Assembly: GCA_030748335.1 (NCBI GenBank)
Contig: JASMMD010000011.1
Coordinates: forward strand, 1-40,578
Length of the DNA stretch: 40,578 bases
Direction: 5' to 3'
Origin: Candidatus Thalassarchaeum sp.
Lineage (GTDB): Archaea > Thermoplasmatota > Poseidoniia > Poseidoniales > Thalassarchaeaceae
Numbering within the stretch: position 1 is the first letter of the stretch; every line of letters begins with the position of its first letter. Below the pieces are notes generated by a model that worked only from the letters and a program-made list of their open reading frames with translations, was not told the origin of the DNA and ran no database searches. The position numbers and the translations under genes are program-made. Positions 7,487 through 24,249 of the stretch are shown here, one piece after another.

Positions 7487-8500
7487 TTGGTCAGTACTAG
7501 ATTCACTGATGATGCCGGGGTCGAGTACCCCATCATTTGCGGTGCCATGTACCCATGCTCCAATCCGGAGCTGGTGGCTGCAGCAGCAGAGGGTGGTGGC
7601 TTGGCAATCATGCAACCCGTCTCAATGACCTACGTGCACGGGTGGGATCTACGCGAGGGAATACGCTACATGCGCACCCTCACTGACAAGCCAATTGGAT
7701 TCAACGCCCTTATCGAGAAGGGCAGCAAGAAGTACTTCGAAAGGATGAGTGAATGGATAGACATCGCCCTTGAGGAGGGGATCAGATTCTTCGTCACCTC
7801 CCTAGGCAAGCCCGATTGGGTTTGTGAGAAGGTTCACGCCTACGGTGGGATGGTATACCACGACGTCACCAACCGCAAATGGGCAGAGAAGGGCAAGGAG
7901 TGTGGGGTTGACGGGCTGATATGTGTCAACGACCGCGCGGGAGGCCATCTCGGGCCGATGTCGATGGAGGAGATGTACGCCGAACTGTCAGATATGGGAC
8001 TCCCATTGATTTGTGCGGGAGGGATAGGTAGCCAGAAGGAGTTGAACAAGGCTCTCGAGATAGGCTACGACGGTGTTCAGATGGGAACGAGGTTCATCGC
8101 TACCACGGAGTGCAATACTCCCGAGGACTACAAAGTCGCAATTGTCGACGCAGGGGAGGATGACATAACCTGGACCAATCGCCTGACGGGTGTCCCAATC
8201 TCAGTGATAAAATCCCCCGGCTTCAAACAGGAGAACTCCTGGTTGATACGCAAACTCCTCGAAAGCCGATTCAAGCACACCGCCCGGATGATGCTCAACG
8301 CGAACTCCTTCATCCGCCTCCGGTATCTCTCTAAGAGCAAGAGCAAGAACACTGCGAAGAAGAAAAAGTTCTACTCAGCGGGAAAGAGCGTGGAGACGGT
8401 TCGCAGTATCGAATCCGCGACCGTCATCATGCGGCGACTGGGCCAGTCATTGGTATCCAACCCGAATCTCACCGAGGACTCACAGGATACCACTGTTTAG
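7487..8500 (+). CDS. Nitronate monooxygenase / FabK-like FMN flavoprotein
   Basis: A 337-residue TIM-barrel FMN protein of the nitronate monooxygenase (2-nitropropane dioxygenase) and FabK superfamily. Seen are the N-terminal YPIICGAMYPCSNPELVAAAAEGG segment, VNDRAGGHLG in the middle, and the phosphate-binding ICAGGIGS followed by GYDGVQMGTRFIATTE. The TTG start is chosen because it follows the strong GAGAAGAGGTGAG ribosome-binding site and gives a natural N-terminus. Being last in a beta-oxidation operon suggests an acyl-CoA-linked role (for example reduction of unsaturated acyl groups) rather than nitroalkane detoxification, but this is inference. The Lys-rich C-terminal 40 residues are unusual. 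Its 3' end overlaps the convergent PIN gene by 21 bases. Confidence 0.85.
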   Translation: MVSTRFTDDAGVEYPIICGAMYPCSNPELVAAAAEGGGLAIMQPVSMTYVHGWDLREGIRYMRTLTDKPIGFNALIEKGSKKYFERMSEWIDIALEEGIRFFVTSLGKPDWVCEKVHAYGGMVYHDVTNRKWAEKGKECGVDGLICVNDRAGGHLGPMSMEEMYAELSDMGLPLICAGGIGSQKELNKALEIGYDGVQMGTRFIATTECNTPEDYKVAIVDAGEDDITWTNRLTGVPISVIKSPGFKQENSWLIRKLLESRFKHTARMMLNANSFIRLRYLSKSKSKNTAKKKKFYSAGKSVETVRSIESATVIMRRLGQSLVSNPNLTEDSQDTTV

Positions 8501-11500
8501 CTGCTGCGCGTCACCCACGACACCGAATCCGTACTCTTCCTCGAGCGCTCTCGAGACCAGTCTGAAGTCGGAGTCTCTGGTAGCCACCAGTACGTCTCCC
8601 ACATCTGGGATGCAGGTCGAGGCGAGGGCCGCGGCGTCCTGCATGATCTCGCGATCCCCCCTCTCTGGATAGATCTCCTCTCCTCCAATCGAGGTCCTCG
8701 ATGGAGTTCTACCACCCTTCCTTTTCTGCTCGTCCACTAGTTTGAAGACCTCTCTGTGACGTAGTAGGAAAGCATCCAAATTGGGCCTTTTTCCCTTCGA
8801 AAGGGAGGGATCATTCCATGAATCAAAGGCCTTGCAGACAGCCTCGACCCTCTGTTCGAGGAACGCCTCGTCGACCACCTCGGACCATGTCGCCTTGTCG
8901 ATGTAGGTTTCCGAGAAGGTATTCAGTATCGAATCAGGACTCCTAGCGCGGTGCAAGAACTCCCCCCTGGCAGCAGGAGGGATGTGAATCAGGACCCTGC
9001 CCTCCTCAGCACGACGACGCAGCATCCAATGGAAAGCCCTCTCTACCGTCCAGTTGAGACTTCCTAGGCTGTCTGAAGATAGATGCTTGAGCAGGTCGTC
9101 CTTGAGGGCCTCAATCAGGACGTTTGTGTCGACCATTACGAGGGGCCTGAGTGACAGGTTCCTGAGGGCCCTCCTCCCCTTCACAGGGATGCTGCCGCTG
9201 TGGATAACGAACAACGCGCGTTGACTCTTCCTCAGCGAGTCAGATTGCTTCAACCCGAGGTCCCCGGAAGCGATTGCCTTCTCCAGCATTCTCAATCCGC
9301 TGATTGGCTCGGTCTCGGCCACCTCGATGGCGATGTCTGCGATCCTCTCAGGATCCTTCTTTCCCCTCATCTCGATCATGAAGCTCCTCTCAAGGTCGGT
9401 CTGCCTGCTGGTCTCCGAGGTCCTCGCTTCGTGCAAGGCGGCCCTGACGCTGCCTTGGAATGGGTCCGACGGCAAGTCGTGATCGTCTGGATACCTATGC
9501 AATCCCTCGAGGATCTCCACTCGCCTGTCCCTTATACTTCCAGCAGCACCGTTGCGAACCACCTCCTCCTCGCGGGCCGCGAACTCAATTAATCCCGCGT
9601 TCGCCTCGTCGGTGTTACCGTCCACATGTCTCTTACAGGTCCTCAGATAGAGCTTGAATCGGTTGGTCACTGAGCTCGAGAGCGCCGGGTTGGCATCTAC
9701 CAAGGCTACCGCCTCGCTCCATCCGGCAGCATGTGCGAACTCGATTAACGACTTGCGCATGACCAGAGAGGAGCGCTCAAAGTCCATCCTCAGCTTCATG
9801 GCAGCGTCCTTGTAGGCGCGAGCCGCGTTCAGACGGTCCCCTCTAGAGCGTAGGTTGGCCGCCCTCACGATCTGGAACTCGGGGCCTGACCTGTCGTTAT
9901 CCCGGTACCATTCCTCCAGTGCGACCACTCCCAGATCGTGCTCGTTCACTAGGTCGGCTACAGCTGCTATGGTTCGCATGGCAACGCCCTCAACGTTGCA
10001 CAGACGACCGAGGGCGTCCACGGATTTCTCCGCATCTCCCCCTGCCCCAATCTGCAGACCCATGGCAGCGCGATTCAACTTCAACGCGGTAATCAGCGCG
10101 TCGAATAGGCACCTCTCAAGATGAGTCAGGTCCGCCCCTAGTATGGATTCCTCCAGATTACCAATCTTGCTCTCTCTGACCACCCCGTCCCCGTCCGGCG
10201 ACAGGGCCCTTCTCACTTCATTGAGAGCCCGGAGCCCGTCGGAATCCAACTTTCCATGCACCGAATCGATGTCTCTCGGCAACCCATCTAGCAGTGAAAT
10301 CAGGGCTACTGAGGCACTGGAGAGAACACTGTCCCCGACAGAATCACCAATCGAACCCAGTGCCGTCCTCCGCAGTTCAGCGAGACCCTCCCAATCTACC
10401 TGAGAACTCCCAGGGAGCAGATGCCATGACATCAGCACTCTGTGAGGGTAGGCCCTCGAGAGAGAAGGGTCCCTTTCGAACGCCACCACTAGATTCTCGA
10501 TGTCGGCGGCTGCGGTGAAGGCGTTCAGCACCTCGTCGGTGTGTCTAATCGACCCCGACTCCCATACTCTTCTAGCAGCCTGCAGCCCTGTGCGAATCGG
10601 AACTCCTCGATGCCGCATCACAGAGAGCAAACCCTCATCTTCCAGTGACTCTATGGATTCGTGCAGAGCCTGAGCAAGAGCCTCGGAATCTATCTCCGAT
10701 AGGATGTCGAGAGCGGTGGAGGCGTGCTCGCCATCATCGATTGACGCACCCTCGGCGAAGCCGAGCGCCGCTACAACATCTCCTTGGGAGACCAAGTTTG
10801 AGGCCACCTTCCACCTGAGTTCGCCGGGCAGGCTCTCTCCCACACTGTCGAGGACCTCTGCGCCCCTGAGGAGGTCAGTGGTTGATAGCTCTGCAGAACA
10901 GAACAGAACGTTCCTCCAAGCGGAGACGCGTAGGGCCCCGGACAACGGATCGTCACCATTCTGGCCGGCGCACGTGCTCCAATTGGATAGGTTTCCAGAG
11001 CGCATCTCAATGAGCATCGAGTGCCTATCGGCCAATTCTCTCATCCCCACGTCCTCGATGCTGTTGAGGACATCCACGGCGGAGTCCTCAGAAGCCGCAG
11101 CGAGTAGTATACCCTCGAGCAAGCCCCCCTCTCCTCTGAGTCCCTTGAGTGACGGCCTCATCCAACGCAACCACATTACAGGCCTAGCACGCCCACCGGC
11201 AAGATCCTGCTTGATTCTGTGTAGTGCATGGTCCTGCTCGGAATTGGTCGTGAACGGAAGCTCTCTGGAGAGCCACTCCCTGAGGCTGTCCCAATCGAGT
11301 GGGTCGAAGTTAGCTGAATCCACCCAATCCCCGGCGTCAACGTCCTTGTCCGCTTCTTCGATTATCGGGAACTGCGCCATCTCCGCGATGAGCGGAGCTT
11401 CCTTGGCAAGGGCCCTCCATACTGGGTGTATGCCCTTCTCACACTCAGATCTCAACTCAGCCATCCGCAAGTCAAGGGAGGCATCCCAAGTTGCCTCTGA

Positions 11501-11839
11501 CTTGCCCCGGTGGGCACACAGAACTGCGAGCTTGTAGGCTGCAGGAGCATCGGAGGAAATGACCTCCAATGGATTGGCTAGTCTGTCATCCATGCTTCTG
11601 ATTCTGCCCCTGCCCCCTCTGCGTCCTACTCTCTGGGACCTAGGGCGTCCATTTCCAGCCGCTGTCTCGATGCCAATGCCCTCGGGGGCGGCTTTGTTAG
11701 CTGCGAGGAAGGCCAGAGCCCTCCATTCGAAGGGTAGGAGGGACCACGCTCTCGGGCGCTGAATGGCCTTCCTGCGTCTGGCTACATCGTCCCCTGCCCT
11801 GTGCAGGAGTTCTAGACACTCGTGAAGATAGTCCTCCAT
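8480..11839 (-). CDS. Large protein of unknown function with C-terminal PIN nuclease domain
   Basis: A 1,119-residue protein I do not recognise as a whole. The first roughly 890 residues are almost wholly helical with short repeated helix pairs (for example AANLRSRGDRLNAARAYKDAA), suggesting a TPR-like solenoid. Residues about 897-1119 look like a PIN ribonuclease: VMVDTNVLIEAL (Asp904), ARGEF (Glu960), REIMQDAAALAS (Asp1068) and ATRDSDF (Asp1089/Asp1091), giving the usual acidic metal-binding set. No signal peptide or membrane segment is seen, so it should be cytosolic. ATG at 11839 is preferred over an in-frame TTG at 11866 because GAGGG precedes it. There is no adjacent antitoxin-like gene. 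RNA processing or decay guided by the solenoid is a hypothesis only. Confidence 0.7.
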   Translation of the reverse strand: MEDYLHECLELLHRAGDDVARRRKAIQRPRAWSLLPFEWRALAFLAANKAAPEGIGIETAAGNGRPRSQRVGRRGGRGRIRSMDDRLANPLEVISSDAPAAYKLAVLCAHRGKSEATWDASLDLRMAELRSECEKGIHPVWRALAKEAPLIAEMAQFPIIEEADKDVDAGDWVDSANFDPLDWDSLREWLSRELPFTTNSEQDHALHRIKQDLAGGRARPVMWLRWMRPSLKGLRGEGGLLEGILLAAASEDSAVDVLNSIEDVGMRELADRHSMLIEMRSGNLSNWSTCAGQNGDDPLSGALRVSAWRNVLFCSAELSTTDLLRGAEVLDSVGESLPGELRWKVASNLVSQGDVVAALGFAEGASIDDGEHASTALDILSEIDSEALAQALHESIESLEDEGLLSVMRHRGVPIRTGLQAARRVWESGSIRHTDEVLNAFTAAADIENLVVAFERDPSLSRAYPHRVLMSWHLLPGSSQVDWEGLAELRRTALGSIGDSVGDSVLSSASVALISLLDGLPRDIDSVHGKLDSDGLRALNEVRRALSPDGDGVVRESKIGNLEESILGADLTHLERCLFDALITALKLNRAAMGLQIGAGGDAEKSVDALGRLCNVEGVAMRTIAAVADLVNEHDLGVVALEEWYRDNDRSGPEFQIVRAANLRSRGDRLNAARAYKDAAMKLRMDFERSSLVMRKSLIEFAHAAGWSEAVALVDANPALSSSVTNRFKLYLRTCKRHVDGNTDEANAGLIEFAAREEEVVRNGAAGSIRDRRVEILEGLHRYPDDHDLPSDPFQGSVRAALHEARTSETSRQTDLERSFMIEMRGKKDPERIADIAIEVAETEPISGLRMLEKAIASGDLGLKQSDSLRKSQRALFVIHSGSIPVKGRRALRNLSLRPLVMVDTNVLIEALKDDLLKHLSSDSLGSLNWTVERAFHWMLRRRAEEGRVLIHIPPAARGEFLHRARSPDSILNTFSETYIDKATWSEVVDEAFLEQRVEAVCKAFDSWNDPSLSKGKRPNLDAFLLRHREVFKLVDEQKRKGGRTPSRTSIGGEEIYPERGDREIMQDAAALASTCIPDVGDVLVATRDSDFRLVSRALEEEYGFGVVGDAQQLNSGIL

Positions 11840-11888
11840 CGGACGCCCTCGGGGGGTCCTGTCCAAGCACTTCCATTCATCAACACAT

Positions 11889-11907
11889 CGCCTTGCTATG
11901 CAAGGCG
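11889..11907. repeat. Perfect inverted repeat between divergent genes (possible operator)
   Basis: CGCCTTGC and GCAAGGCG are perfect 8-base arms separated by TAT. The site is almost midway between the preferred starts of the PIN gene (11839, minus) and the membrane-protein gene (11950, plus), a position suited to an operator shared by both. If the TTG at 11893 were the true start of the plus-strand gene, the repeat would lie in coding sequence instead. Confidence 0.5.
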
Positions 11908-11949
11908 GTAGTAGCGAGAACTCAAGGCGTCAGAGCCCTAGCGCGACCC

Positions 11950-12417
11950 GTGGACCCCGTCAGAACCGCGATACTGCTACTCCACCCACTTGCAGCACTC
12001 GCACTCATTTGGGTCTTCCTCAATCAGCGTCGTTGGAGGCATCAGAGCACGTTACTGAGAGGGGATGAAAGGGAGTCGGCCTTGGCCGACCACCAAGCGA
12101 GCGGTGACAAGGCGATGGCATATGTCGTCGCTGTAATCGCCCTCGCCTTCGCAGCACACGTCGCGAGAGCGAGTCTCGAGGGGTTGAATCCGACGACCTA
12201 CCTCGTCCCCGGTCACTTCCATGGCTGGGCTGGGCTTCTGGGCCTTCTGTTCATGACCACTCTGTGGAGGATGGGCCGCAAGACGCGCGACCTGAAGTCC
12301 GAGGGCAAGCCGTTCGCCCGCAGCAAGGAGCTCCACGGAAGAATCAGCGACGCGATGGTAATGCTGGTGGCGATTCACGCCTTTCTGGGCTTCCTGTACT
12401 TTCTCAAAATAGTGTAA
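11950..12417 (+). CDS. Small multi-helix membrane protein, DUF4079 / cytochrome b561-like
   Basis: About 155 residues with four predicted membrane helices. Helix 1 begins immediately (TAILLLHPLAALALIWVFL), the second is AYVVAVIALAFAAHVA, the third HGWAGLLGLLFMTTLW, and the fourth MLVAIHAFLGFLYFLKIV. Histidines in or beside helices (LLHP, GHFHGW, ELHGR, AIHAF) resemble b-type haem ligands of cytochrome b561-like or DUF4079 proteins, so a redox role in the membrane is possible. The GTG at 11950 is preferred because it directly precedes the first helix; an in-frame TTG at 11893 would add an implausible leader through a palindrome. It abuts the convergent DHH gene with no spacer. Family naming is tentative. 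Confidence 0.55.
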   Translation: MDPVRTAILLLHPLAALALIWVFLNQRRWRHQSTLLRGDERESALADHQASGDKAMAYVVAVIALAFAAHVARASLEGLNPTTYLVPGHFHGWAGLLGLLFMTTLWRMGRKTRDLKSEGKPFARSKELHGRISDAMVMLVAIHAFLGFLYFLKIV

Positions 12418-13398
12418 TCAACGCTCTGCCCACATCTCTAGCCAGGCCGCTAGGTTCGCTTCTATGTCGCCTTCAGTAACCATACGATCGACCCTAGTTC
12501 CCTCCTCAAGCGCCTGAATCCTGCAACCGCAGGCATTGGCATGCCCCCCTCCATCGGTGTCGAATCGAGTTGCCAGTCTAGTCAGGTCGTAGAGCCCTCC
12601 TGCCGTATGGAGGAACGAGTTGGTGTAGAATGAGGCCGAGACCGGGTACCTATTCTGTTCTCCGAACGATGCGCCGACGTCTCCGTGGACAACCAAGCAA
12701 GCATCACAATCGTCACCCACTAGAGCGGTGACGTGGTAGCCGTTTGAGCGCAGTCCACGGTCCTCAAGCCGGACTATCGCCAGTCTGTCTATCACTTCGG
12801 TGCTATTCGAGATTACAGCATCCATCTCAGCCTGCCTGCGACGCCTTTCGCTAAGGGCAGGAGCAACCTTTGGATCCGATAGCACCGTCTCGACCGAAAC
12901 GCCATCCTGCAAGGCTTCTAGGACGTGTAGTGCCAAGCCTGATTCCACATCGATTATACGTCCCAGCCAGATTACCGGGTGATCGGAGCGAAATTCTTCA
13001 CGGGTTATTCCACCACCATCCAACTTGTCGACCCAGTTGAGCATCTGCGACAGATCGCCCAGATCGACGGCAGCCGACAGAAGATCGTAGGCGATACGAG
13101 CAGCCGAAGGGGCCTGCCTCCAGACTACTACCACGTCATCATCATCACTTTCGGTGGGGGCGTTGGATTGGTGGTGGTCGATGCTCAGCCCACAGTTCGG
13201 GTGACGGGGTAGGTCGCACACCGCCGTATGTCTGTCGATGCAGTCGTCCAGCAGACCCGCACGCAGCTCGCCGGGATGGCCGAAGATGACCTCCGCATCA
13301 GGCCACCAGCGCCTCAGGATGGCTCCGGTCACAACCCCGTCGAGGTCGCTGTCAGTGACTATCCTGCGAATATCCAGTGACAGTGCCTGCTCGCCCAT
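12418..13398 (-). CDS. DHH-family phosphoesterase
   Basis: A phosphoesterase of the DHH/DHHA1 superfamily (RecJ, NrnA, GdpP relatives) of about 326 residues. The N-terminal metal-binding motif TDSDLDG lies near residues 14-20, the signature LSIDHHQSN about 50 residues later, and the DHHA1 substrate-binding glycine motif DGGGHANACG near the C-terminus. Proteins of this size hydrolyse short oligonucleotides or nucleotide second messengers; the exact substrate is not evident, and the exonuclease domains of RecJ are not all present. The ATG at 13398 puts the first motif where the family usually has it. Longer frames reach 13500 and 13815, but the extra part overlaps the divergent Nudix gene and is not conserved-looking. 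Confidence 0.82.
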   Translation of the reverse strand: MGEQALSLDIRRIVTDSDLDGVVTGAILRRWWPDAEVIFGHPGELRAGLLDDCIDRHTAVCDLPRHPNCGLSIDHHQSNAPTESDDDDVVVVWRQAPSAARIAYDLLSAAVDLGDLSQMLNWVDKLDGGGITREEFRSDHPVIWLGRIIDVESGLALHVLEALQDGVSVETVLSDPKVAPALSERRRRQAEMDAVISNSTEVIDRLAIVRLEDRGLRSNGYHVTALVGDDCDACLVVHGDVGASFGEQNRYPVSASFYTNSFLHTAGGLYDLTRLATRFDTDGGGHANACGCRIQALEEGTRVDRMVTEGDIEANLAAWLEMWAER

Positions 13399-13518
13399 CT
13401 CAGCAGCAGCCCCAGCCACTCCTCCATTGTGCTTTCTGTCGGTAGTTACGCAAACCCATTGCCTCAGAATGGCGTTCGTGGTGGCAATTGAGATATGCAT
13501 GACCGCTATGCGCGCGCT

Positions 13519-13948: not shown

Positions 13949-14557
13949 TTACTCCTCTCGCTTGCCCAGCGGGGTCCAGAGAACCTCTTCCTCGCCAGCC
14001 ATCCTCGAGATCCATCTGCTCAGCACGAACATCCAGTCCGAGAGCCTGTTCAGATAGGATACGACCTCACCTCGCACCGCATCATTGCCATCCGTGTCGC
14101 GCAGCGAGCAGGCATGCCTCTCGGCTCTGCGTGCCACTGTTCGGGCGACATGCAGGGTCGCCACGGGCGGCGATCCGGTGGGCATTATGAAGGACTCCAA
14201 CGGGTCTAACTCTTCGAGCCACGAATCCATCTCGGCGACCAAACGATCACCGGCGTTAGAGCCGATGAGGACCATCTGCTCAGGAAGCTTCCCAGGAGTG
14301 CACGAGCACTCGCCACCGATGTCGAAAAGCTCCTGCTGCACCCGGCCCATGGCCTCATCGGCCGAGTTGCGTGCCTCGACCGGAACACCCGGCATCCTGT
14401 TGAGCTCCATCCTGACCACGCCGAGCTGAGAGTTGACCTCGTCTATGGTACCGTAGAGCCTAACACGGGAGTTTTCCTTACCGACCTCCGTGCCATCTAA
14501 CAGACGGGTCTTACCTCCGTCGCCGGCTCCGGTGTGGACCTTGGTGATTCTGACCAT
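13949..14557 (-). CDS. Cob(I)alamin adenosyltransferase, PduO type
   Basis: Transfers the 5'-deoxyadenosyl group of ATP to cob(I)alamin, making adenosylcobalamin. The 202-residue protein has the PduO-type signature: N-terminal TGAGDGGKT, GTIDEVNSQLG, the FDIGG segment, the RRAER motif, and YLNRLSDWMFVLSRW at the C-terminus. Length is normal for the single-domain enzyme. It is the last of three minus-strand genes with two small unknown proteins upstream. A GAGGT six bases before the ATG and a TATA-like GATATTGCAT about 28 bases upstream may give it its own promoter. No cobalamin-using enzyme is in the window; methylmalonyl-CoA mutase for odd-chain fatty acids, or ribonucleotide reductase, are possible clients elsewhere. 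Confidence 0.92.
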   Translation of the reverse strand: MVRITKVHTGAGDGGKTRLLDGTEVGKENSRVRLYGTIDEVNSQLGVVRMELNRMPGVPVEARNSADEAMGRVQQELFDIGGECSCTPGKLPEQMVLIGSNAGDRLVAEMDSWLEELDPLESFIMPTGSPPVATLHVARTVARRAERHACSLRDTDGNDAVRGEVVSYLNRLSDWMFVLSRWISRMAGEEEVLWTPLGKREE

Positions 14558-15304: not shown

Positions 15305-15628
15305 TTACTCCTCCGGGGGCTCTTCTCGCCATCCGGGCTTCCAGAACTCCTCTTCGTCCAGCCACTCCAGCCAAGCTACTGCGTCTGCCTGAAGCAGTTT
15401 GTCGGCGCGGCGCTCTAGCCCGTCGAGCAGCGAAGCCTCGACTTCCATCCTGTCGCTGGCCTCGTTCCATTCAGCCTTCAACTCTCCAATCAGGCGCTGC
15501 CCCTCCTCGTGGTCGTCGTAGCAGCGCTCGCACACTTCTCGGAGGTCTTGGATCCACATCCTAGCACCGCGCATGTGAGGCTCCTCATCGAGAACCTTCT
15601 CCTTGCGCTTGAACGGCCACCACCCCAT
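15305..15628 (-). CDS. Small acidic helical protein of unknown function
   Basis: A 107-residue protein, highly charged and rich in Glu, Arg and Trp. It begins MGWWPFKRKEK, perhaps an amphipathic membrane-contact segment, and continues as a probable coiled coil (residues 25-85). It contains a single CERC pair near residues 33-36 that could bind metal. I recognise no family. It is three bases upstream of the membrane-protein gene, so the two are likely to be translated together. It is divergent from rlmH, with 79 bases between the start codons. The reading frame is credible because of its spacing and its codon usage, which resembles its neighbours; function is unknown. Confidence 0.55.
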   Translation of the reverse strand: MGWWPFKRKEKVLDEEPHMRGARMWIQDLREVCERCYDDHEEGQRLIGELKAEWNEASDRMEVEASLLDGLERRADKLLQADAVAWLEWLDEEEFWKPGWREEPPEE

Positions 15629-15690
15629 CGCTATCGGTACTCCCGCCCCGTCCGACTATCTTGATGCTTTGCGAACCGCTCAAGTTGAGG

Positions 15691-15707
15691 GGCGGTCACG
15701 AACCGCC
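15691..15707 (+). repeat. Inverted repeat directly abutting the rlmH start codon
   Basis: GGCGGT (15691-15696) and ACCGCC (15702-15707) are perfect arms around CACGA; the next base is the A of the rlmH ATG. In RNA it would form a six-pair hairpin ending at the start codon; in DNA it could be an operator. GAACCGC also occurs twice nearby (from 15673 and from 15700). Confidence 0.45.
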
Positions 15708-16142
15708 ATGGGTCGCATAGTCGTGCACCTTCACGGCGCTGCGAAGAACCCTTCACATCGAGCATCGATATCAGATTATTCAACGAGGCTCAGGGCAGGC
15801 GGTGTTAGGCTCATCGAGCACAGCGATCGGACAACTGCCCAAGGATACTTGGAGGAGGTGTACGGAGCGGCGAACAGCCGCTCTGTTGTGCTCCTGCAGG
15901 AGTCGGGCGAGATGCATGACAGCGAGTCTTTCGCCTCGGTGGTCGGCCGCTGGCGGCTGGAATCGGATGAGACCCATCTGGTGGTCGGCCCGGCGGACGG
16001 GTTTGGCGACGCCGGCGTGGGCCGGAAGGCGATTTCACTGGGTCCTATGACCATGCAGCACGAGCTCGCTGCGGTTGTGCTGTTGGAACAACTCTACCGA
16101 GCCACCACGATACTTGACGGGCGGCCGTATCACAGGGCCTGA
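15708..16142 (+). CDS. rlmH: RlmH-type SPOUT methyltransferase (23S rRNA pseudouridine-1915 N3)
   Basis: Methylates the pseudouridine at position 1915 (E. coli numbering) in helix 69 of large-subunit rRNA, using S-adenosylmethionine. The 144-residue protein carries the family's C-terminal knot: LGPMTMQHELAAVVLLEQLYRA followed by the closing GRPYHRA. An N-terminal strand IVVHLHGAAKNP replaces the usual KI-(I/V)-AVGK. The frame runs 35 codons further upstream, but the ATG at 15708 fits the family N-terminus; the extra part would overlap the divergent gene. RlmH is common in bacteria and known in some archaea. A hairpin touches the start codon and two alternative hairpins follow the stop. Confidence 0.88.
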   Translation: MGRIVVHLHGAAKNPSHRASISDYSTRLRAGGVRLIEHSDRTTAQGYLEEVYGAANSRSVVLLQESGEMHDSESFASVVGRWRLESDETHLVVGPADGFGDAGVGRKAISLGPMTMQHELAAVVLLEQLYRATTILDGRPYHRA

Positions 16143-16204: not shown

Positions 16205-16284
16205 TTCTGTTGATAAGCAGGGTGGATTTGACGGGGCACTTCGGGGGTCGAAAGATGGACGAGAGCAATGTAATGATAGGTGAC

Positions 16285-19200
16285 ATGAAGAGCAGGAACT
16301 CTGCGATTGCGATGGTGGTGCTGATGCTGCTCAGCTCCCAGATGTACAGTCTAATGGACTTTGAGCGTGAGGACCCGGACGAGTCTGTCTGGGGTGCCGT
16401 TCCGCAAAGGACAGCCTACCAGCAGATGAACCAAGCATCAGGCCCCGTAGCAGGCGACAGCCAGGGCCAACCGGCCGCAGAGTTCTCCTTCTACGAGGCT
16501 AGTTTCACCGACCCCTCCTACCACGACCCCGCATCCATCTACGGCCAAGTCTCCGATCCAGCCGCCCTTGCTCTTGATCCCGGTTACGGCTTCTTCCTCG
16601 AGGAGACCCAGACCGAGGACCACGACAACGACGGCATCGATGACCTCAACGATCTCGACGACGACAACGACGGCATCGTTGATCTGATAGAGCGCTTCGA
16701 CGGGTGCTACGGCACCGACCCCTTCGACCACGATAACGACGGCACCCTCGACGAGTTCGACTGGGATGACGACAACGATGGCATCCTCGAGGGACCAATC
16801 GATTACTCGCAGGGAGCAGACCCAAGGAACGTCAGCGCAGACCGGTACGTCGACCCTGACGCTGTTCACCCATGGACTGGAACTCCGGTCGGCATCGGCT
16901 ATCGCGTCGACCAGAATCCGATGGACCACGACAACGACGGAATCACCGATGAGGACACCGATGGAATTGGGCCGGACTCGTACGACGAGGACGATGACAA
17001 CGACGGTCGCATTGACCAGTTCAAGTGGCCCTGTGACTTCGACGGCGACGGCTTCCAGGACTACTTCGATCTCGACGATGACAACGACGGCGTACCCGAC
17101 CTCTGGGACGAGCACCCTTGGGACAGCACGATGACCGACAACATCACTTCCACCGGTGTGTTGTGGGGGGTTCCCAGAGAATGGACCGCGGGTGCCACCA
17201 CACACAACGTAAACATCGTCAGCTCTGGATACGTTCCGGCAAATCTCAGCATCAAAGCCGGTGACACGGTAGTCTGGACCAACACCGATACGACCGATCA
17301 CACAGTCACTCACGACGGCCCCACTTTCGATAGCCTACCCATCCAACCTGGCTCTTCGTGGAGCTTCACATTCACAACCGCAGGGACCTACAACTACTCC
17401 TGCATGCTACACCCCACGATGACCGGAGTGGTCACCGTGGCAGCCTCTTCGGGTTCTACCACCAGCACATACTCCAGCTTCGTCGGTGGCGTCGACTACG
17501 TGCAACGCGAAGCCGCCTGGCACCCTAGGAATCAGACCTTCGATATGATCATCGACGGCGACCTTGACAACGACGGAATACCCAACTTCCTCGACCCGGA
17601 CAACGACAACGACGGCACTCCCGACTCAGCCGACACCGATGACGACAACGACGGCCTGATGGACATGTACGACGTCGATGATGACAACGACGGAATCCCT
17701 GACACCTGCTACCAGATTGACACCAACGGCGATGGGCTGGGCGACTACCCTGTGCCATACACCCAGATTGAGGTCCCAGGGGTGGATTGCGAGATGGACT
17801 ACGATCGGGACATCGACGATGACAGGTACCGACCGATCGATCAGGACTACGATTTGGTTTGGGACTGGCTGGACCCGGACATGGGGGGAACGGCTCTGCC
17901 TGACAACCCCCTCGGGGGCCCTTCGATGAACCCCGACGACATCCCGTTCGACTTGGATGATGATGGTATACCCAACGAGGAGGATCCGTACATGAACTCG
18001 ACCTACGATGAGGTCCAGAACTGGAACTGCCCGAGCCTCACCAACCCAAATCCGGTCAACTCCCACGAGAACTGCGTCCTGATGCGTAAGTCGTACACAG
18101 GAAACAACGACTGGGACGGCGACGGCATTAACAACTGGGAGGACGTAGACGACGACAACGACGGCATACTCGACTGGTTGGACATCGACGAGGACTGCGA
18201 CTTTGACGACGACAACGATCTCCACCTACTGAACGGCTCGATGTTCCGTGACGACGGCCCCAACCATCTGGATACGGATATCGACGGCGACGGACTGCCG
18301 AACGACACTGATTGGGACGACGACAACGACGGAATCTCAGACTACTATGACCCTGATGATGGCAACTGCGGAATCGTCGACTCGGACACGACGGACCCGT
18401 TCAACAGCTGGTCCTACTCTCACGGCGATGGCGACCCGATCGACGGCTCTGACGACGGGCAGATCTACGCGGCCGATCTCGGCTACCCACTCTATTGGAA
18501 CCTGACTTGGATGTTCAACCCGTTCAACCTCAACAACAACTTCGTCCTTGACTACAATGGCTACGTCAACAACAACGGGACCATCACCAACGGCAAGCTC
18601 CCTGAGATGTACTGGTATGTCCTCATGAAGTGGAGCCCGTACAACGGTGGCAACTACTTCGACATCGACCTAGACGGCGACTCGCTGGTGAACGGCATCG
18701 ACACCGACCAAGATGGCGACGGCCTGCCGGACTGGTGGGACCAGGACGAGGGCAACGACGGTGTACTCGATGTCGACGACATCAAGATGGGTGGAACCTT
18801 CGATGACGGCACCTGTGGAGCCACCTTAGTATGGGCTATTCTCCAAAACGTAGCTGATGACCATGCCTGCGGACTCGCTTATGCGTGGCTCTATGGATAC
18901 CCCCTACAGGGAGCAACTCAAACCCAACAAACCATCTACACCTCGCCATACAGCACCAGACCCGATTCCGAGTTTGATCAGGGTGCATACAACGGCAGCA
19001 ACTCTCAAGGCCAGTGGACATGCAACAAGAACTGCTTCTGGTTCGATTTCTTCGGAAACCAAGACGTAGGTCCGAGCTCCGCAGTCAGTTACAACCAGAT
19101 CAAGGACAATCGCGACCTGTGGGTGGCGTGGGTCGGCGTGAACAACGGCTTGTTCTCATGGAACTCCGACGGCAACGCCAATATGTTCCCCGACGAGGTT

Positions 19201-22200
19201 GCCGACCTACTGAACAACGACGTCGATCCTGATGACGACTGCGGGGCCCCGATTGCGGGCAACATGAACCCCCAGTGTATGTTCAATGACACCGCCGATC
19301 TCGATGACGACTTCGATGGGATTTACGACCACTGGGACATAGATGACGACAACGACGGCATCTGGGACTACTTTGAGATCGATTCCAACGACGACTGGGA
19401 CGACGACGCAAACACTGAACCGGAGGGTTCGTTCTTCATCGGCACCAACTGCGAGGATAATGACGACGATGGCACCGATACGGACCCCGATGACGACGGC
19501 TGGTTCCAAGCGGTCTGGGACAAAGGAGTTCTAGGCCAGGGGCTTCTTCATCCGAAGTACTACGACGTCGACAACGATAACGACGGGGTCCCTGATGGAG
19601 AGGACCCGGACGATGACAACAACGGACTCCTTGACTCCGATCAGGAACTGCTCTGCTTCGTCGGCGAGGAGCAGTCGCCTTGGGACCACGACGACGACGG
19701 CATACTCGACTGGTCCGATGACGACTGGGACGGTGACGGACTAGTCAACATCCTCGAGATGGCAACCGCCACGCCGTGGATAACGCCCTGGGATCACGAC
19801 AACGACGGACTGAGGGACGACGTCGACCTCGACGACGACTCCGACGGCATGCTCGACGAGGACGAGGTAATGCTCTGGCCTTCGAGGTTCGACAGCGAAT
19901 CGACGAATCCATGGGACCATGATGACTTCGGAGACGGCTCGGGCATATCCAATCCTTCGGATCCTAATACAGGACCCGACGCGAGGGACCAAGACGACGA
20001 CGCGGACAATCGAACCGATATGGACTGGGACCACCTCGAGGAGGGCTGGACCTCCGATAACTGCACCAATGGTGCCGAATCCAGCGACTGGGACCACGAC
20101 AACGATTGCATCCCCGACGAGGACGACAAGATACCCACTAGAATATCTATGACCGTGCCTGAGATCCTGTGGCTCGACAACCGCTATCCCGCTAAGTTCA
20201 ATGGCACTGTGAACTGGCTCGACCCGGTCCAAGGTGTCTTCATGCCAGCATCGGACCTGCCCGTGCAGGTCCACATCGTGTGGTCGAGGAACGGAACCAC
20301 AGCGGTCGAGACGGTGAACGTGCTGACCGACCAGGATGGCGACTTCATAGTCGGGCAGTTCCTCTTCCCCGAGGATATCCACGTGGGTGACAACACGACC
20401 TACCAAGTCTACGCCGAGGTCACGGAGATGTTCGTGCACGACGGCTCCACGACTGAGCCAGTACCGGTCGAAGTGCGGGCGAACACGACCATCGACTATG
20501 TCGCTTGGACCTACTTCCGCAGCGATGAGCAACCACTCTTTGTCGACTTCAAGGTACACTACACCGCTGATTGGGAGCGCGGCATCTTCGGAAACAGGCT
20601 CACAAACGCCCCGGTCTCGTTCACCATTAGCGGCGGCATCTTCGGAAACACCACTCACCCAACCGTGTTCGACGGCTACGGCTACGGATACAGAGCGGAT
20701 TCTGGTGGGTGGGTGTCGCTCACGTTCGTGCAGTCGAGCGGCTCACAGGGAGTTTGGAAGCAGGTACAGTGGAACTCGACCATGGACAACGGGGTCGGCA
20801 AAGTCCCCGGTGGCTACGAGGAGATAGTGTGGGACAACTTCTCCAAGAGCCACAACGTCATCGGACGCTACAACTACACCAATACCAGCCTTCCAATAGG
20901 CGACTACGCGTTCGTTGGCTACTCTAGACCCGACATGGGCGCCGAGTGGCCGTGGCCCTACCTAGAAGGGGACAACACGGACAGCTTCGCCATACGCTCG
21001 ATGCACAGGATGTACGTCGAGGCAGAGATCATCACGCCATCGATCCGACCGGTCTACTTCTGGGACTCGACCCAGTTTACCGGCTCGTCCTTCGGGGCTT
21101 GGAGGGCACTCTTCCACGGCCCGTCCTTAGTCAACGCCGGTATAGACTACGCCGACGCTAGCCGGGGCAAGCCGTACGCCATACTGTGGGACGGAACGCC
21201 AGCGGGGCTGACCGGACAGGCCGCCTCCCTTCGCCCGTTCCTGAACACGAATGGCACCCACTGGTTCATCTCGATGCAGAATGGAGGCGACTTCAACGTG
21301 CCACCATGCGGTCCTGTCGACCCATTGGATCCCGACAGCGGCGTTCGTTGCGAGATAGTGCCTGAGATGTTCACGGGCGAGGAGTTCAGGGTAATTGGAA
21401 CCGTGTGGAATCGAACCATGACCGCTTGGCCGCACGACCCGATGGCTCTCCAGGTCGACGTTGATCGCAACGGCGTCTTCGCGGGCTCGCAGGAGACCGG
21501 CTTCGCACGAGTACCTCAGATGGTCAATGGTGAGGCCACGTTCGACTACAACTGGACTTGGTACTCGCAGTACTCGGCCGGGGTTTTCGGCATTCGCGCT
21601 GACTTCACCAACTCGAACTTCTACTTCACTGGCAACCAGACCTCTGTGCTGGCTCCGACCGGAGCGTACGTCAACGTCTCCGTGATTGGAACCACCGAAT
21701 TCCAGCTGAACAACATCCCTCGCCTGTACCGTGGACAGAACACCACGATCGAGGCGAGGCTGATTGACAACGCGTACCAACCAGTCCGAGACGCCCCAAT
21801 CAACTTCACTTGGTCCGCCGATGGCACCAACGACCTGGCCGTGACCGACCACAACGGGGTCTTCTCGGTCAATCTGACCATCGATGATCAGCACGAGTTG
21901 GGCAACTTCACGCTGAGCTATTCATACCCCGGTGACCCGATACGGCAGTCCAGCTCCTCGGAGGTTCACCTTTGGGTGGTCTCGAGGACGCTAATCTCGT
22001 TGCAGAGTACTACATCGGGCGCCATGAGCAGCGGCGACATCTGGGAGTTCTCGGCACAGGTCACCGATGACAACCGCACGCCCGACCCGACAGTGTTCGA
22101 CGCAGGACAGGCTCTCGATGGGTGCGGCGTCAACGGCGGTGAGGTTCTCATCATCTTCGAGGGCACTGACTTTGAGGACCGCACCCATCGTCAGATAGTG

Positions 22201-24249
22201 GAGACCACCTGCCCCAGTGCAGGCTCCATATACCATGAAATCACGCTGGACCCACAGTTGCTGAGAGATGACCCCGAGTCTTTCCTACCCGATGGTTTCG
22301 GGCCGGTAAACGTCGTTCTACGATTCGGTGAGAACCTCCCGCATGAGGGCTGCGAACCTCTTGATGACGACATGCTGAGGACCTCGGGAGCGTGGGACCC
22401 ATGCACTCAGATTCTCAACAGCGAGCACTTCCGAAAGGTGCTACAGTTCAACGCACAGGGATTCTACCTCATCGGTCGAACCAACCTCGTGGTCGACGAC
22501 CAGATCGTCTATACCTCCGAAATCGACCAGACCACAGGCCAAGCCATCGACAAGCCGATGATAGTAACCGGTCAACTACTCGACGAGCTGGGCGCCAACC
22601 TCTCGCACAGGGCCATACGCGTTGAGTACCAGATGCTCAACATGGAGATGGGTAGCCAAGTCTGCATACCGGGCGCGACTGACAACGACGGCTTCTTCGA
22701 GATCATCTGCCCGATGACCGGCGTCGAGGCCGGGCAAGCGATGGTGACGATATCGTACGATCCCTACGAGAGCCTCGACAACTGGCGCTACAAGCCCACG
22801 AACATCACCAAGATATTCCCAGTGTTCTCAAACTCGACCATGTTGGTGCAAGAGGTAGGCCCGTTCAGGACGGACGTGGACACCTACACCTTCGCCAACG
22901 GTTCAGTCTTCCCGGTTCTGTACCTCAAGGAGTCGTTCCACGTCGAGGCTCTGCTCACTCAGACCAACGGCAACCCAATTGGCGGCAAGTGTCTCAACAT
23001 CTACCTCGACCCACAGACCAACACACGACCGGTCGCGACCGCCACCACGATGGACGGAACCGGTGAGATAGAGTGGTTCTCGGGTGACCCCGAGGACAAC
23101 CCCAGCAGACGAGGGGTCGAGCCCAATGGCGAGCAGTTGGAAGGCTTCAGAACGGTGCGTGTGGCATACGAGCCAGACAAGGAACTCCCAGGAGGTTGCC
23201 GCGCCGAGACCACGCCCGTTGTCAACGGCTCCCACATGGACATCGAGGTGCTGGTGCGCAGCCGAGTCGATATCCTGCTGAAGGATCACTGGGCCAGCTC
23301 GGTGGGCTACCAGCCAGGCGATCCCATCGACGGTGCCGTGACCATACTGCGCGACCGGCTTGACCTATCGGTAGAGGGTGAGACGGTGATATTCACCTTC
23401 CAGTACTGGAATGGTACGGGCTATGTCACGGGCTTCCCGCCCGTGTACGCTGTGACCAACGAGCAGGGCGCAGCCAACTTCAGCTGGCCCGGCGAGGGCT
23501 ACTCAGGTGAGGATGTTCCCGGTGAGATAGACTGCGCGGCCGGAGGTCCATGCGTGGTGGACGGCAAATGGAGGGTGCTCGTGCACTTCCAGGAGTCGCC
23601 ATTCTACGTCGAGGAGTTCCTCAACAGCACGCCCATCATCAAACTCGGTGACGAGCCGGTAAAACAGCAGACCAGCTTCTTCACAGCAAGGGTGACCGTG
23701 GTACTGCTCGTCGCCCTGTCTTTCGCTCTGATGATCGGCGCGATCATGTATCGCAACTACGCCGAGCGCAGACGCATCGAAATCATCCGCGGCATACTGA
23801 CCGACTCCCTGATGTCCCTCAAGGCCTCTAACGACTACATCCAGACCATCTTCAACTGCTACAAGGACCTAGTGAGGTTCTTCAGGTCAAGAGGCGCGAT
23901 GAAGAAAGTCTACGAGACCACTAGGGAATTCGAGGACGCAATCAACTCGATGCTCGGAGGGGTAGCTCCGCCGGAGGATTTGAACGAGTTCTTCTCAATC
24001 TTCGAAGAGGCTCGCTACTCCGACCACGAGATCGGTGCCGACCAGCGTGACAGGGCCATTTCGACTCTGCAGTCGATAGTGAACCACCTGACCGCCGCGT
24101 TGGGCGACTCGATGCTTAACAGGACCTACTCAGATGAGTCCGGACTCTATGGCTCTATCACCAAGGCGGGCGAGTTTGTGGACTCCGAGGGCGAGACCCG
24201 GATTGCCGGCCTCGACGAGGACAACCCGAACGACGGCTTCCGGATATGA
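16285..24249 (+). CDS. Giant cell-surface protein: TSP type-3 repeats, copper domain, beta-sandwich stalk, DUF4129-like tail
   Basis: About 2,654 residues. An N-terminal signal segment (MKSRNSAIAMVVLMLLSS) directs export. Then come Asp-rich calcium-binding thrombospondin type-3 repeats of the DDDNDGI/DxDGDG kind, roughly residues 105-285 and 420-1285. Set between them is a cupredoxin domain (about 305-390) with amicyanin-like ligands His339, Cys373, His376 and Met379 (C-x2-H-x2-M). Residues 1290-2450 are beta-rich with many N-glycosylation-type Asn-x-Thr/Ser sites, like tandem Ig-like domains. One membrane helix (RVTVVLLVALSFALMIGAIM, near 2475) precedes a cytosolic tail of about 160 residues resembling DUF4129 (CYKDLVRFFRSRG, FEEARYSDHEIG). 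The start at 16285 follows AGGTGAC and begins the signal peptide; ATG at 16255 is an alternative. A role in adhesion, surface layer or particle attachment is inferred. Confidence 0.9.
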   Translation: MKSRNSAIAMVVLMLLSSQMYSLMDFEREDPDESVWGAVPQRTAYQQMNQASGPVAGDSQGQPAAEFSFYEASFTDPSYHDPASIYGQVSDPAALALDPGYGFFLEETQTEDHDNDGIDDLNDLDDDNDGIVDLIERFDGCYGTDPFDHDNDGTLDEFDWDDDNDGILEGPIDYSQGADPRNVSADRYVDPDAVHPWTGTPVGIGYRVDQNPMDHDNDGITDEDTDGIGPDSYDEDDDNDGRIDQFKWPCDFDGDGFQDYFDLDDDNDGVPDLWDEHPWDSTMTDNITSTGVLWGVPREWTAGATTHNVNIVSSGYVPANLSIKAGDTVVWTNTDTTDHTVTHDGPTFDSLPIQPGSSWSFTFTTAGTYNYSCMLHPTMTGVVTVAASSGSTTSTYSSFVGGVDYVQREAAWHPRNQTFDMIIDGDLDNDGIPNFLDPDNDNDGTPDSADTDDDNDGLMDMYDVDDDNDGIPDTCYQIDTNGDGLGDYPVPYTQIEVPGVDCEMDYDRDIDDDRYRPIDQDYDLVWDWLDPDMGGTALPDNPLGGPSMNPDDIPFDLDDDGIPNEEDPYMNSTYDEVQNWNCPSLTNPNPVNSHENCVLMRKSYTGNNDWDGDGINNWEDVDDDNDGILDWLDIDEDCDFDDDNDLHLLNGSMFRDDGPNHLDTDIDGDGLPNDTDWDDDNDGISDYYDPDDGNCGIVDSDTTDPFNSWSYSHGDGDPIDGSDDGQIYAADLGYPLYWNLTWMFNPFNLNNNFVLDYNGYVNNNGTITNGKLPEMYWYVLMKWSPYNGGNYFDIDLDGDSLVNGIDTDQDGDGLPDWWDQDEGNDGVLDVDDIKMGGTFDDGTCGATLVWAILQNVADDHACGLAYAWLYGYPLQGATQTQQTIYTSPYSTRPDSEFDQGAYNGSNSQGQWTCNKNCFWFDFFGNQDVGPSSAVSYNQIKDNRDLWVAWVGVNNGLFSWNSDGNANMFPDEVADLLNNDVDPDDDCGAPIAGNMNPQCMFNDTADLDDDFDGIYDHWDIDDDNDGIWDYFEIDSNDDWDDDANTEPEGSFFIGTNCEDNDDDGTDTDPDDDGWFQAVWDKGVLGQGLLHPKYYDVDNDNDGVPDGEDPDDDNNGLLDSDQELLCFVGEEQSPWDHDDDGILDWSDDDWDGDGLVNILEMATATPWITPWDHDNDGLRDDVDLDDDSDGMLDEDEVMLWPSRFDSESTNPWDHDDFGDGSGISNPSDPNTGPDARDQDDDADNRTDMDWDHLEEGWTSDNCTNGAESSDWDHDNDCIPDEDDKIPTRISMTVPEILWLDNRYPAKFNGTVNWLDPVQGVFMPASDLPVQVHIVWSRNGTTAVETVNVLTDQDGDFIVGQFLFPEDIHVGDNTTYQVYAEVTEMFVHDGSTTEPVPVEVRANTTIDYVAWTYFRSDEQPLFVDFKVHYTADWERGIFGNRLTNAPVSFTISGGIFGNTTHPTVFDGYGYGYRADSGGWVSLTFVQSSGSQGVWKQVQWNSTMDNGVGKVPGGYEEIVWDNFSKSHNVIGRYNYTNTSLPIGDYAFVGYSRPDMGAEWPWPYLEGDNTDSFAIRSMHRMYVEAEIITPSIRPVYFWDSTQFTGSSFGAWRALFHGPSLVNAGIDYADASRGKPYAILWDGTPAGLTGQAASLRPFLNTNGTHWFISMQNGGDFNVPPCGPVDPLDPDSGVRCEIVPEMFTGEEFRVIGTVWNRTMTAWPHDPMALQVDVDRNGVFAGSQETGFARVPQMVNGEATFDYNWTWYSQYSAGVFGIRADFTNSNFYFTGNQTSVLAPTGAYVNVSVIGTTEFQLNNIPRLYRGQNTTIEARLIDNAYQPVRDAPINFTWSADGTNDLAVTDHNGVFSVNLTIDDQHELGNFTLSYSYPGDPIRQSSSSEVHLWVVSRTLISLQSTTSGAMSSGDIWEFSAQVTDDNRTPDPTVFDAGQALDGCGVNGGEVLIIFEGTDFEDRTHRQIVETTCPSAGSIYHEITLDPQLLRDDPESFLPDGFGPVNVVLRFGENLPHEGCEPLDDDMLRTSGAWDPCTQILNSEHFRKVLQFNAQGFYLIGRTNLVVDDQIVYTSEIDQTTGQAIDKPMIVTGQLLDELGANLSHRAIRVEYQMLNMEMGSQVCIPGATDNDGFFEIICPMTGVEAGQAMVTISYDPYESLDNWRYKPTNITKIFPVFSNSTMLVQEVGPFRTDVDTYTFANGSVFPVLYLKESFHVEALLTQTNGNPIGGKCLNIYLDPQTNTRPVATATTMDGTGEIEWFSGDPEDNPSRRGVEPNGEQLEGFRTVRVAYEPDKELPGGCRAETTPVVNGSHMDIEVLVRSRVDILLKDHWASSVGYQPGDPIDGAVTILRDRLDLSVEGETVIFTFQYWNGTGYVTGFPPVYAVTNEQGAANFSWPGEGYSGEDVPGEIDCAAGGPCVVDGKWRVLVHFQESPFYVEEFLNSTPIIKLGDEPVKQQTSFFTARVTVVLLVALSFALMIGAIMYRNYAERRRIEIIRGILTDSLMSLKASNDYIQTIFNCYKDLVRFFRSRGAMKKVYETTREFEDAINSMLGGVAPPEDLNEFFSIFEEARYSDHEIGADQRDRAISTLQSIVNHLTAALGDSMLNRTYSDESGLYGSITKAGEFVDSEGETRIAGLDEDNPNDGFRI

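Follow-up and report, generated by a model that had tools for sequence, protein, structure and literature searches.

In SMG5 and SMG6, a TPR-like helical region is followed by a C-terminal PIN domain. According to the part of PMC12923823 that was consulted, the catalytic residues of SMG6 are D1251, E1282, D1353 and D1392, the PIN domain of SMG5 is inactive, and a fifth catalytic acidic residue is noted in some active PIN domains. Other systems share one part of this layout or a related one: VapC toxins consist of a PIN core; PRORP, which replaces RNA-based RNase P, joins a helical repeat domain to a PIN-like (NYN) nuclease; and Ski3, Ctr9, Naa15 and the TPR proteins of the APC/C form extended superhelices of helical hairpins.

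The gene analysed here comes from Marine Group II, which outnumbers all other planktonic archaea in the surface waters of the ocean and is without cultured representatives (PMC6461757, as far as consulted). It lies in the window, that is, the whole stretch of 40,578 nucleotides that was analysed, which is contig C2 of an assembly of 1.16 Mb and 80.6% completeness. An earlier note on this DNA had described a PIN nuclease fused to a very long helical solenoid; this observation is confirmed, and the interpretation attached to it is partly supported. The literature search found no description of the protein, which does not prove that none has been published, and the portions seen of the main texts of two papers on Marine Group II (PMC6461757 and PMC9723583) do not mention a PIN domain or a ribonuclease.

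Reading frame, PIN domain and solenoid

The features of the locus are given in Table 1. The longest open reading frame at the gene site extends over 8480-11866 on the minus strand (1128 aa) with a TTG start, and the in-frame ATG at 11839 corresponds to the start used in homologues of the same genus (MEDYL...), which gives a protein of 1119 aa. The span 8480-11839 of the earlier note agrees exactly with this homologue-supported start; the strand, which the note did not give, is minus. Because the frame stays open in homologues of 26-92% identity and the dN/dS ratios are 0.10-0.14 (0.098-0.135 for the whole gene and 0.075-0.138 for the PIN domain, six pairs), this is a real gene, and it is under purifying selection with a dN/dS of about 0.1. 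A few copies are irregular: that of G142:C3 is broken by two TAG stops and a split, that of G069:C42 consists of two overlapping pieces, and G086 carries a second, partial copy (C17 and C26). These may be sequencing errors, mixed strains or real changes, which are indistinguishable here.

Table 1. Positions in the window of the PIN-solenoid gene, its parts and the neighbouring genes.
Feature	Position	Strand	Remarks
Complete PIN-solenoid gene	8480..11839	-	1119 codons and TGA stop; ATG 11837-11839; open and conserved in 49 aligned homologues
Alpha-helical hairpin solenoid, predicted TPR-superhelix-like, residues 1-890	9170..11839	-	AlphaFold2; Foldseek and VIA-align rows
Arg/Gly-rich basic loop, residues 55-80, probably disordered, with R73-R74 in GRRGGRG	11600..11677	-	pLDDT below 50; 49-row alignment
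Predicted PIN nuclease domain, residues 891-1119; a helical insertion follows the Glu helix and precedes the third acidic residue	8483..9169	-	Domain model pLDDT 87.7, pTM 0.86; VapC Z 10.2
D904-T905-N906, first acidic motif, after strand 1	9122..9130	-	Invariant in 49/49
E960, second acidic residue	8960..8962	-	Invariant in 49/49
D1062, third acidic residue, where a helix begins	8654..8656	-	Invariant in 49/49
D1089-x-D1091, fourth and possible fifth acidic residues, past the last core strand and before the C-terminal helices	8567..8575	-	Both invariant in 49/49
NMO-family enzyme gene, convergent with the PIN gene	7487-8500		End overlaps the PIN gene by 21 bases
174-aa probable membrane protein (by eye), divergent neighbour	11893..12417	+	Relative in 30/41 loci
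DHH-like phosphoesterase	12418..13404	-	Relative in 35/41 loci and beside empty sites; DHH motifs by eye
Cobalamin adenosyltransferase	13949-14557	-	E 1e-46; inside or close to the conserved upstream block
SPOUT methyltransferase	15603-16142	+	PF02590, E 1.4e-25; in or near the conserved block upstream

Searches with sequence profiles leave the protein without a name. No Pfam family was found for the 1128-aa frame, its solenoid part or the 1119-aa protein, and the C-terminal piece alone gave only PIN, at an E of 0.12-0.15, which is below the cut-off. When 17 PIN domains were searched, PIN was listed for nine (best E 6.7e-4) and PIN_12 (PF16289) for five (best E 1e-4), and none of the profile scores examined for the PIN domain passed a curated cut-off. 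PIN_12 is the best sequence lead, with one match across its full 172 positions; however, the best score among the domains scored singly is 23.2 bits against a gathering cut-off of 32, and by that rule the domain is not a member. The PDB sequence search gave nothing credible with either the PIN profile or the full-protein profile, the NCBIfam search did not name the family, and the best PHROGs match (E 2.4e-4, listed for 4/43) is an unnamed family. The TPR profiles TPR_19 (E 0.21) and TPR_16 (E 0.96) were each listed for one of 29 family members.

The AlphaFold2 model of the full protein, built with 49 sequences, has a mean pLDDT of 85.8 and a pTM of 0.68, and at residues of about 897-1119 it has the strands and the helices that make up a PIN domain. 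The PIN domain was also folded alone as a 235-residue piece, where the acidic residues are placed as the PIN topology requires, i.e., after the strand at 14-19, in the helices at 71-80 and 176-189, and after the strand at 196-202. In the VIA-align comparison of this model, the first five rows are VapC chains (Z 9.6-10.2, 2.8-3.2 Å, 128-135 residues), the best of them at Z 10.2 and 3.0 Å over 131 of 133 residues, and the 50 rows are mostly PIN or NYN ribonucleases, including Nmd4 (8.3), Rrp44 (7.2) and SMG6 (7.0-7.2). VIA-align only re-ranks chains already listed by Foldseek, which by itself gave no row at E ≤ 0.001, the best PIN row being Rrp44 at an E of 0.079. On the predicted structure, membership in the PIN-domain superfamily is settled by fold and not by sequence.

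The five acidic residues of the putative site (D904, E960, D1062, D1089 and D1091), together with T905 and N906, are invariant in all 49 homologues. The protein has 178 acidic residues in all, and 5/37 inside the PIN domain are invariant versus 0/141 outside it (Fisher p = 0.0003; 49 sequences). The acidic PIN set that the earlier note had read in the C-terminal ~220 residues is therefore borne out, and the structure prediction it had asked for has the PIN fold, with the acidic residues clustered across homologues. Since D1089 and D1091 are both invariant and a fifth catalytic acidic residue is known in some PIN domains, the site may, by this precedent, be complete without a partner. With all canonical acidic positions kept, the putative RNA-cutting domain looks intact. 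It is quite improbable that the protein is instead a scaffold with a PIN domain that binds to nucleic acid or metal without cutting, or that it cuts DNA; inactive PIN domains do exist, e.g., that of SMG5 in the consulted part of PMC12923823, but canonical acidic residues invariant in 49/49 are unexpected for a decayed PIN domain.

Residues 1-890 are almost wholly helical in the model, with hairpins of about 30-50 residues. Foldseek and VIA-align of the full model gave largely TPR superhelices (IFT-A, Ctr9, Ski3, Naa15 and APC/C) at Z ≤ 9.9 and mostly large rmsd, a value that for helical repeats indicates the fold class only, lies below a meaningful level and implies no shared function. The predicted solenoid looks like the common TPR-superhelix kind. 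The earlier note had found no family for this region, which holds for sequence; because the fold resembles a common superhelix, "no known family" is not equal to a new fold. The longest low-confidence stretch of the full model is the Arg/Gly-rich loop at residues 55-80. The aligned segment of residues 55-96 contains 7-11 Lys/Arg in each of the 49 rows, and R74 is invariant; the blocks that flank the loop are acidic on average, as is the protein otherwise. The composition of the loop would be suited to contacts with RNA or with a ribonucleoprotein.

The order of a TPR-like region and a C-terminal PIN domain recalls SMG5 and SMG6 as described in the consulted part of PMC12923823, in line with the guided RNA-decay factors that the earlier note had been reminded of. 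The acidic order D-E-D-D is common to SMG6 and the present protein, and the fold match to SMG6 (Z 7.0-7.2) is one of many PIN rows. However, 101 residues lie between E960 and D1062 here, against 70 between E1282 and D1353 of SMG6, which corresponds to the helical insertion of the present domain. Moreover, there is no sequence match to SMG5 or SMG6, the solenoid here is longer, no UPF1-type partner was identified, and the protein is archaeal and order-specific. Among the fold rows of the full model, none was named as a TPR domain of SMG5/6/7 and no 14-3-3-like match was seen, which excludes nothing. The resemblance to SMG6 is one of layout, without evidence of common descent.

Distribution, locus and inheritance

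The close relatives identified by name belong to Marine Group II (Ca. Thalassarchaeum, Ca. Thalassarchaeaceae and Ca. Poseidoniales), and a relative is encoded in 241 of the 276 candidate stretches. Several of the relatives are labelled as AG- isolates, which we take from the naming convention to be single-cell genomes, so that the gene cannot be put down to an artefact in a single bin. Among the 80 stretches listed, L147, a contig titled Neomarinimicrobiota bacterium, encodes the protein at 44% identity to the archaeal query and is probably a misplaced contig.

With presence scored at E ≤ 0.001 for relatives, class and phylum, the gene was found in 37/40 relatives and in 151/194 genomes of the class (31/37 of the best-quality ones). 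In the phylum, 76/292 genomes match, all in two families of the same order. The PIN domain alone matched 78/292 genomes of the phylum at E ≤ 0.1, and the three of these outside the order, at an E of 0.03-0.08, are at chance level. Within what was searched, the family is by its sequence matches private to the order Ca. Poseidoniales; the lineage restriction that the earlier note had proposed agrees with this, there being no credible match elsewhere in the phylum.

Within the order, two genera are cleanly without the gene. Among the genomes listed, which take in all but 23 of the gene-less ones, genus g7 has 11 without a match and none with one, and genus g20 has three without, while a fourth, G184, is absent from the matches listed. 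Assembly gaps may account for the absences in G013, G104, G141, G175, G187 and G200. From gene-less genomes, nine loci that surround the DHH neighbour (L190-L198) were retrieved. Eight of them have the neighbours on both sides but no PIN gene; L198 (G104), the remaining one, is cut off by a contig edge and is uninformative. No frame of the nine loci matches the family profile in the search for remnants. In two g7 loci, a hydrophobic ORF of 260 aa, membrane-like by eye, occupies the empty site (L192 9311-10093 and L193 7180-7962); it was considered as a decayed PIN gene and rejected, as it does not match the family profile. With the flanks intact, the PIN gene missing and no remnant found, the gene is dispensable in these lineages.

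The surroundings were compared over 41 loci, consisting of the window and L060-L099, which were selected as gene carriers and differ in flank length. The DHH-like neighbour matches Pfam DHH/DHHA1 only below the cut-off, and its longer ORF start overlaps a NUDIX gene on the opposite strand, which adjoins it in many of the 41 loci. A relative of the cobalamin adenosyltransferase is present in 26/41 loci, and the genes downstream of the PIN gene vary. Further along the window lies an ORF of 2679 aa, 16210-24249 (+), whose relatives (cluster 18) are found beside several loci, both those that carry the PIN gene and those that lack it. None of the neighbours can be clearly recognised as a partner in RNA decay.

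When pairwise distances are compared, the Spearman coefficient between the PIN protein and a neighbour is 0.83 for the DHH-like gene (595 pairs), 0.74 for cluster 6 (231 pairs), 0.73 for the cobalamin adenosyltransferase (325 pairs) and 0.50 for the membrane-type protein (435 pairs), where two neighbours compared with each other give 0.72. The relation to cluster 4, which is isocitrate-dehydrogenase-like by eye, is weak (0.36, 300 pairs); that gene is strongly conserved and is not an immediate neighbour in every locus. Because the distances track those of the neighbours at one locus, the gene is vertically inherited, as a single copy at a conserved locus. The mean distance of 0.68 for the PIN protein, compared with 0.28-0.63 for five neighbours, shows that it evolves faster than they do.

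The locus bears directly on a possible role in conflict. Large sensors joined to a nuclease are a frequent layout of conflict systems, and a defence effector, which the earlier note had considered, or an abortive-infection effector would use the solenoid to sense an invader or a bound partner and unleash the PIN nuclease. The fast evolution of the protein and its absence from two genera are what such an effector could show. However, the gene occupies a fixed housekeeping locus, its distances are congruent with those of its neighbours, and most of the order carries it; no mobile, viral or defence context was recognised, and none of the 51 pattern-matching stretches from viral contigs encodes a relative. 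PADLOC gave no model for the window protein, and other models matched one or two of 29 members, at a best E of 0.0015 for an unrelated model. A defence role is therefore unlikely, and this part of the earlier interpretation is not supported.

The reading as a classical VapC toxin enlarged by fusion is highly improbable, even though the PIN domain finds its best fold matches in VapC chains. Unlike VapC, the protein of 1119 residues is about eight times larger, has an extra helical insertion in its PIN domain and sits at a fixed locus, and neither the window nor the 41 neighbourhoods showed a recognisable small antitoxin gene next to it. The neighbours in the window are the divergent membrane-type protein and the convergent NMO-family enzyme, consistent with the view in the earlier note that the toxin-antitoxin layout does not apply. 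In addition, PF01850 (PIN) is over the cut-off in only 1/11 genomes; VapC toxins have hardly any place in the genomes tested. There is no support for a toxin-antitoxin role.

Comparison with other RNA enzymes and proposed function

Genomes with and without the gene were examined for other RNA enzymes. Archaeal RNase P RNA is over the cut-off in 15/15 genomes, including that of the window and five without the PIN gene, and a separate protein of the Nob1 type with PIN_6 is encoded in 11/11 genomes, including G000:C6 and five without the PIN gene; PIN_6 is not among the matches of 29 family members. As RNase P RNA and Nob1 are present regardless, the PIN-solenoid protein is no stand-in for either, and both a PRORP role and an identity with Nob1 were rejected. 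PRORP resembles the protein in joining helical repeats to a PIN-like nuclease (fold match Z 6.1-6.6), but differs in that here RNase P RNA is present, no NYN match over the cut-off and no PPR match were obtained, and the solenoid is much larger.

Exosome-type RNase_PH proteins occur in 13/13 genomes with or without the gene, with three matches in 12 genomes and one in G005; a coupling to the exosome was rejected on this account. RNase_PH, RNase P RNA and Nob1 are thus present either way, and no linked pathway was found. An aRF1-type eRF1_2 match is present in 13/13 genomes. A link to Pelota and ribosome rescue was also dismissed, because the strong second eRF1_2 match in gene-less g20 genomes and the weak one in carriers are different proteins: the latter is Pelota-like by its N-terminus (by eye), and the former is another aRF1-related protein. 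This extra protein of 367 aa (L210 1378-2481 and L211 1559-2662) is found with a high score in the g20 genomes G115, G157 and G184, and also, at 49% identity, in the PIN-gene carrier G086.

These results also weigh on a possible nuclease dedicated to the maturation of a single stable RNA, be it pre-rRNA, tRNA or some other structured RNA, with a solenoid that would read this RNA in the manner of the PPR domains of PRORP. The single-copy, vertical and conserved gene would agree with such a role, and many PIN/NYN fold relatives, such as Utp23, HARP and PRORP, process rRNA or tRNA. However, RNase P RNA and the Nob1-type protein are kept by carriers and non-carriers, no PPR family is among the Pfam matches, and the clean absence from two genera is hardly compatible with an essential step unless it is replaced. 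This role is considered rather doubtful.

The best explanation, which is held with modest confidence as somewhat more probable than its negation, is a vertically inherited, non-essential, order-specific housekeeping RNA endonuclease on a TPR-like scaffold. In this mechanism, the C-terminal PIN domain would cut RNA via a metal-ion site formed by D904, E960, D1062 and D1089/D1091, and the solenoid and the Arg/Gly loop would recruit and position the substrate or an RNA-protein partner. A weak and unspecific nuclease would then be confined to the sites at which it has been positioned, in the manner of RNA decay or quality control. We infer the nuclease activity, the RNA substrate, its selection by the solenoid, and decay or quality control over the maturation of one stable RNA. 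A more specific proposal, to which only a low probability is given, is a solenoid-guided RNA surveillance endonuclease peculiar to the Poseidoniales, i.e., an equivalent of SMG6 in function but of archaeal origin, in which the solenoid and the Arg/Gly loop would recognise the ribosome or an RNA-protein complex, with the PIN domain making the first cut in the RNA.

A large, conserved and unnamed predicted nuclease in most Marine Group II archaea points to an RNA-handling step that is invisible to standard annotation, and the two genera without the gene provide a natural comparison. If the surveillance role is true, the family would represent an archaeal route to the scaffold-plus-PIN solution of eukaryotic nonsense-mediated decay.
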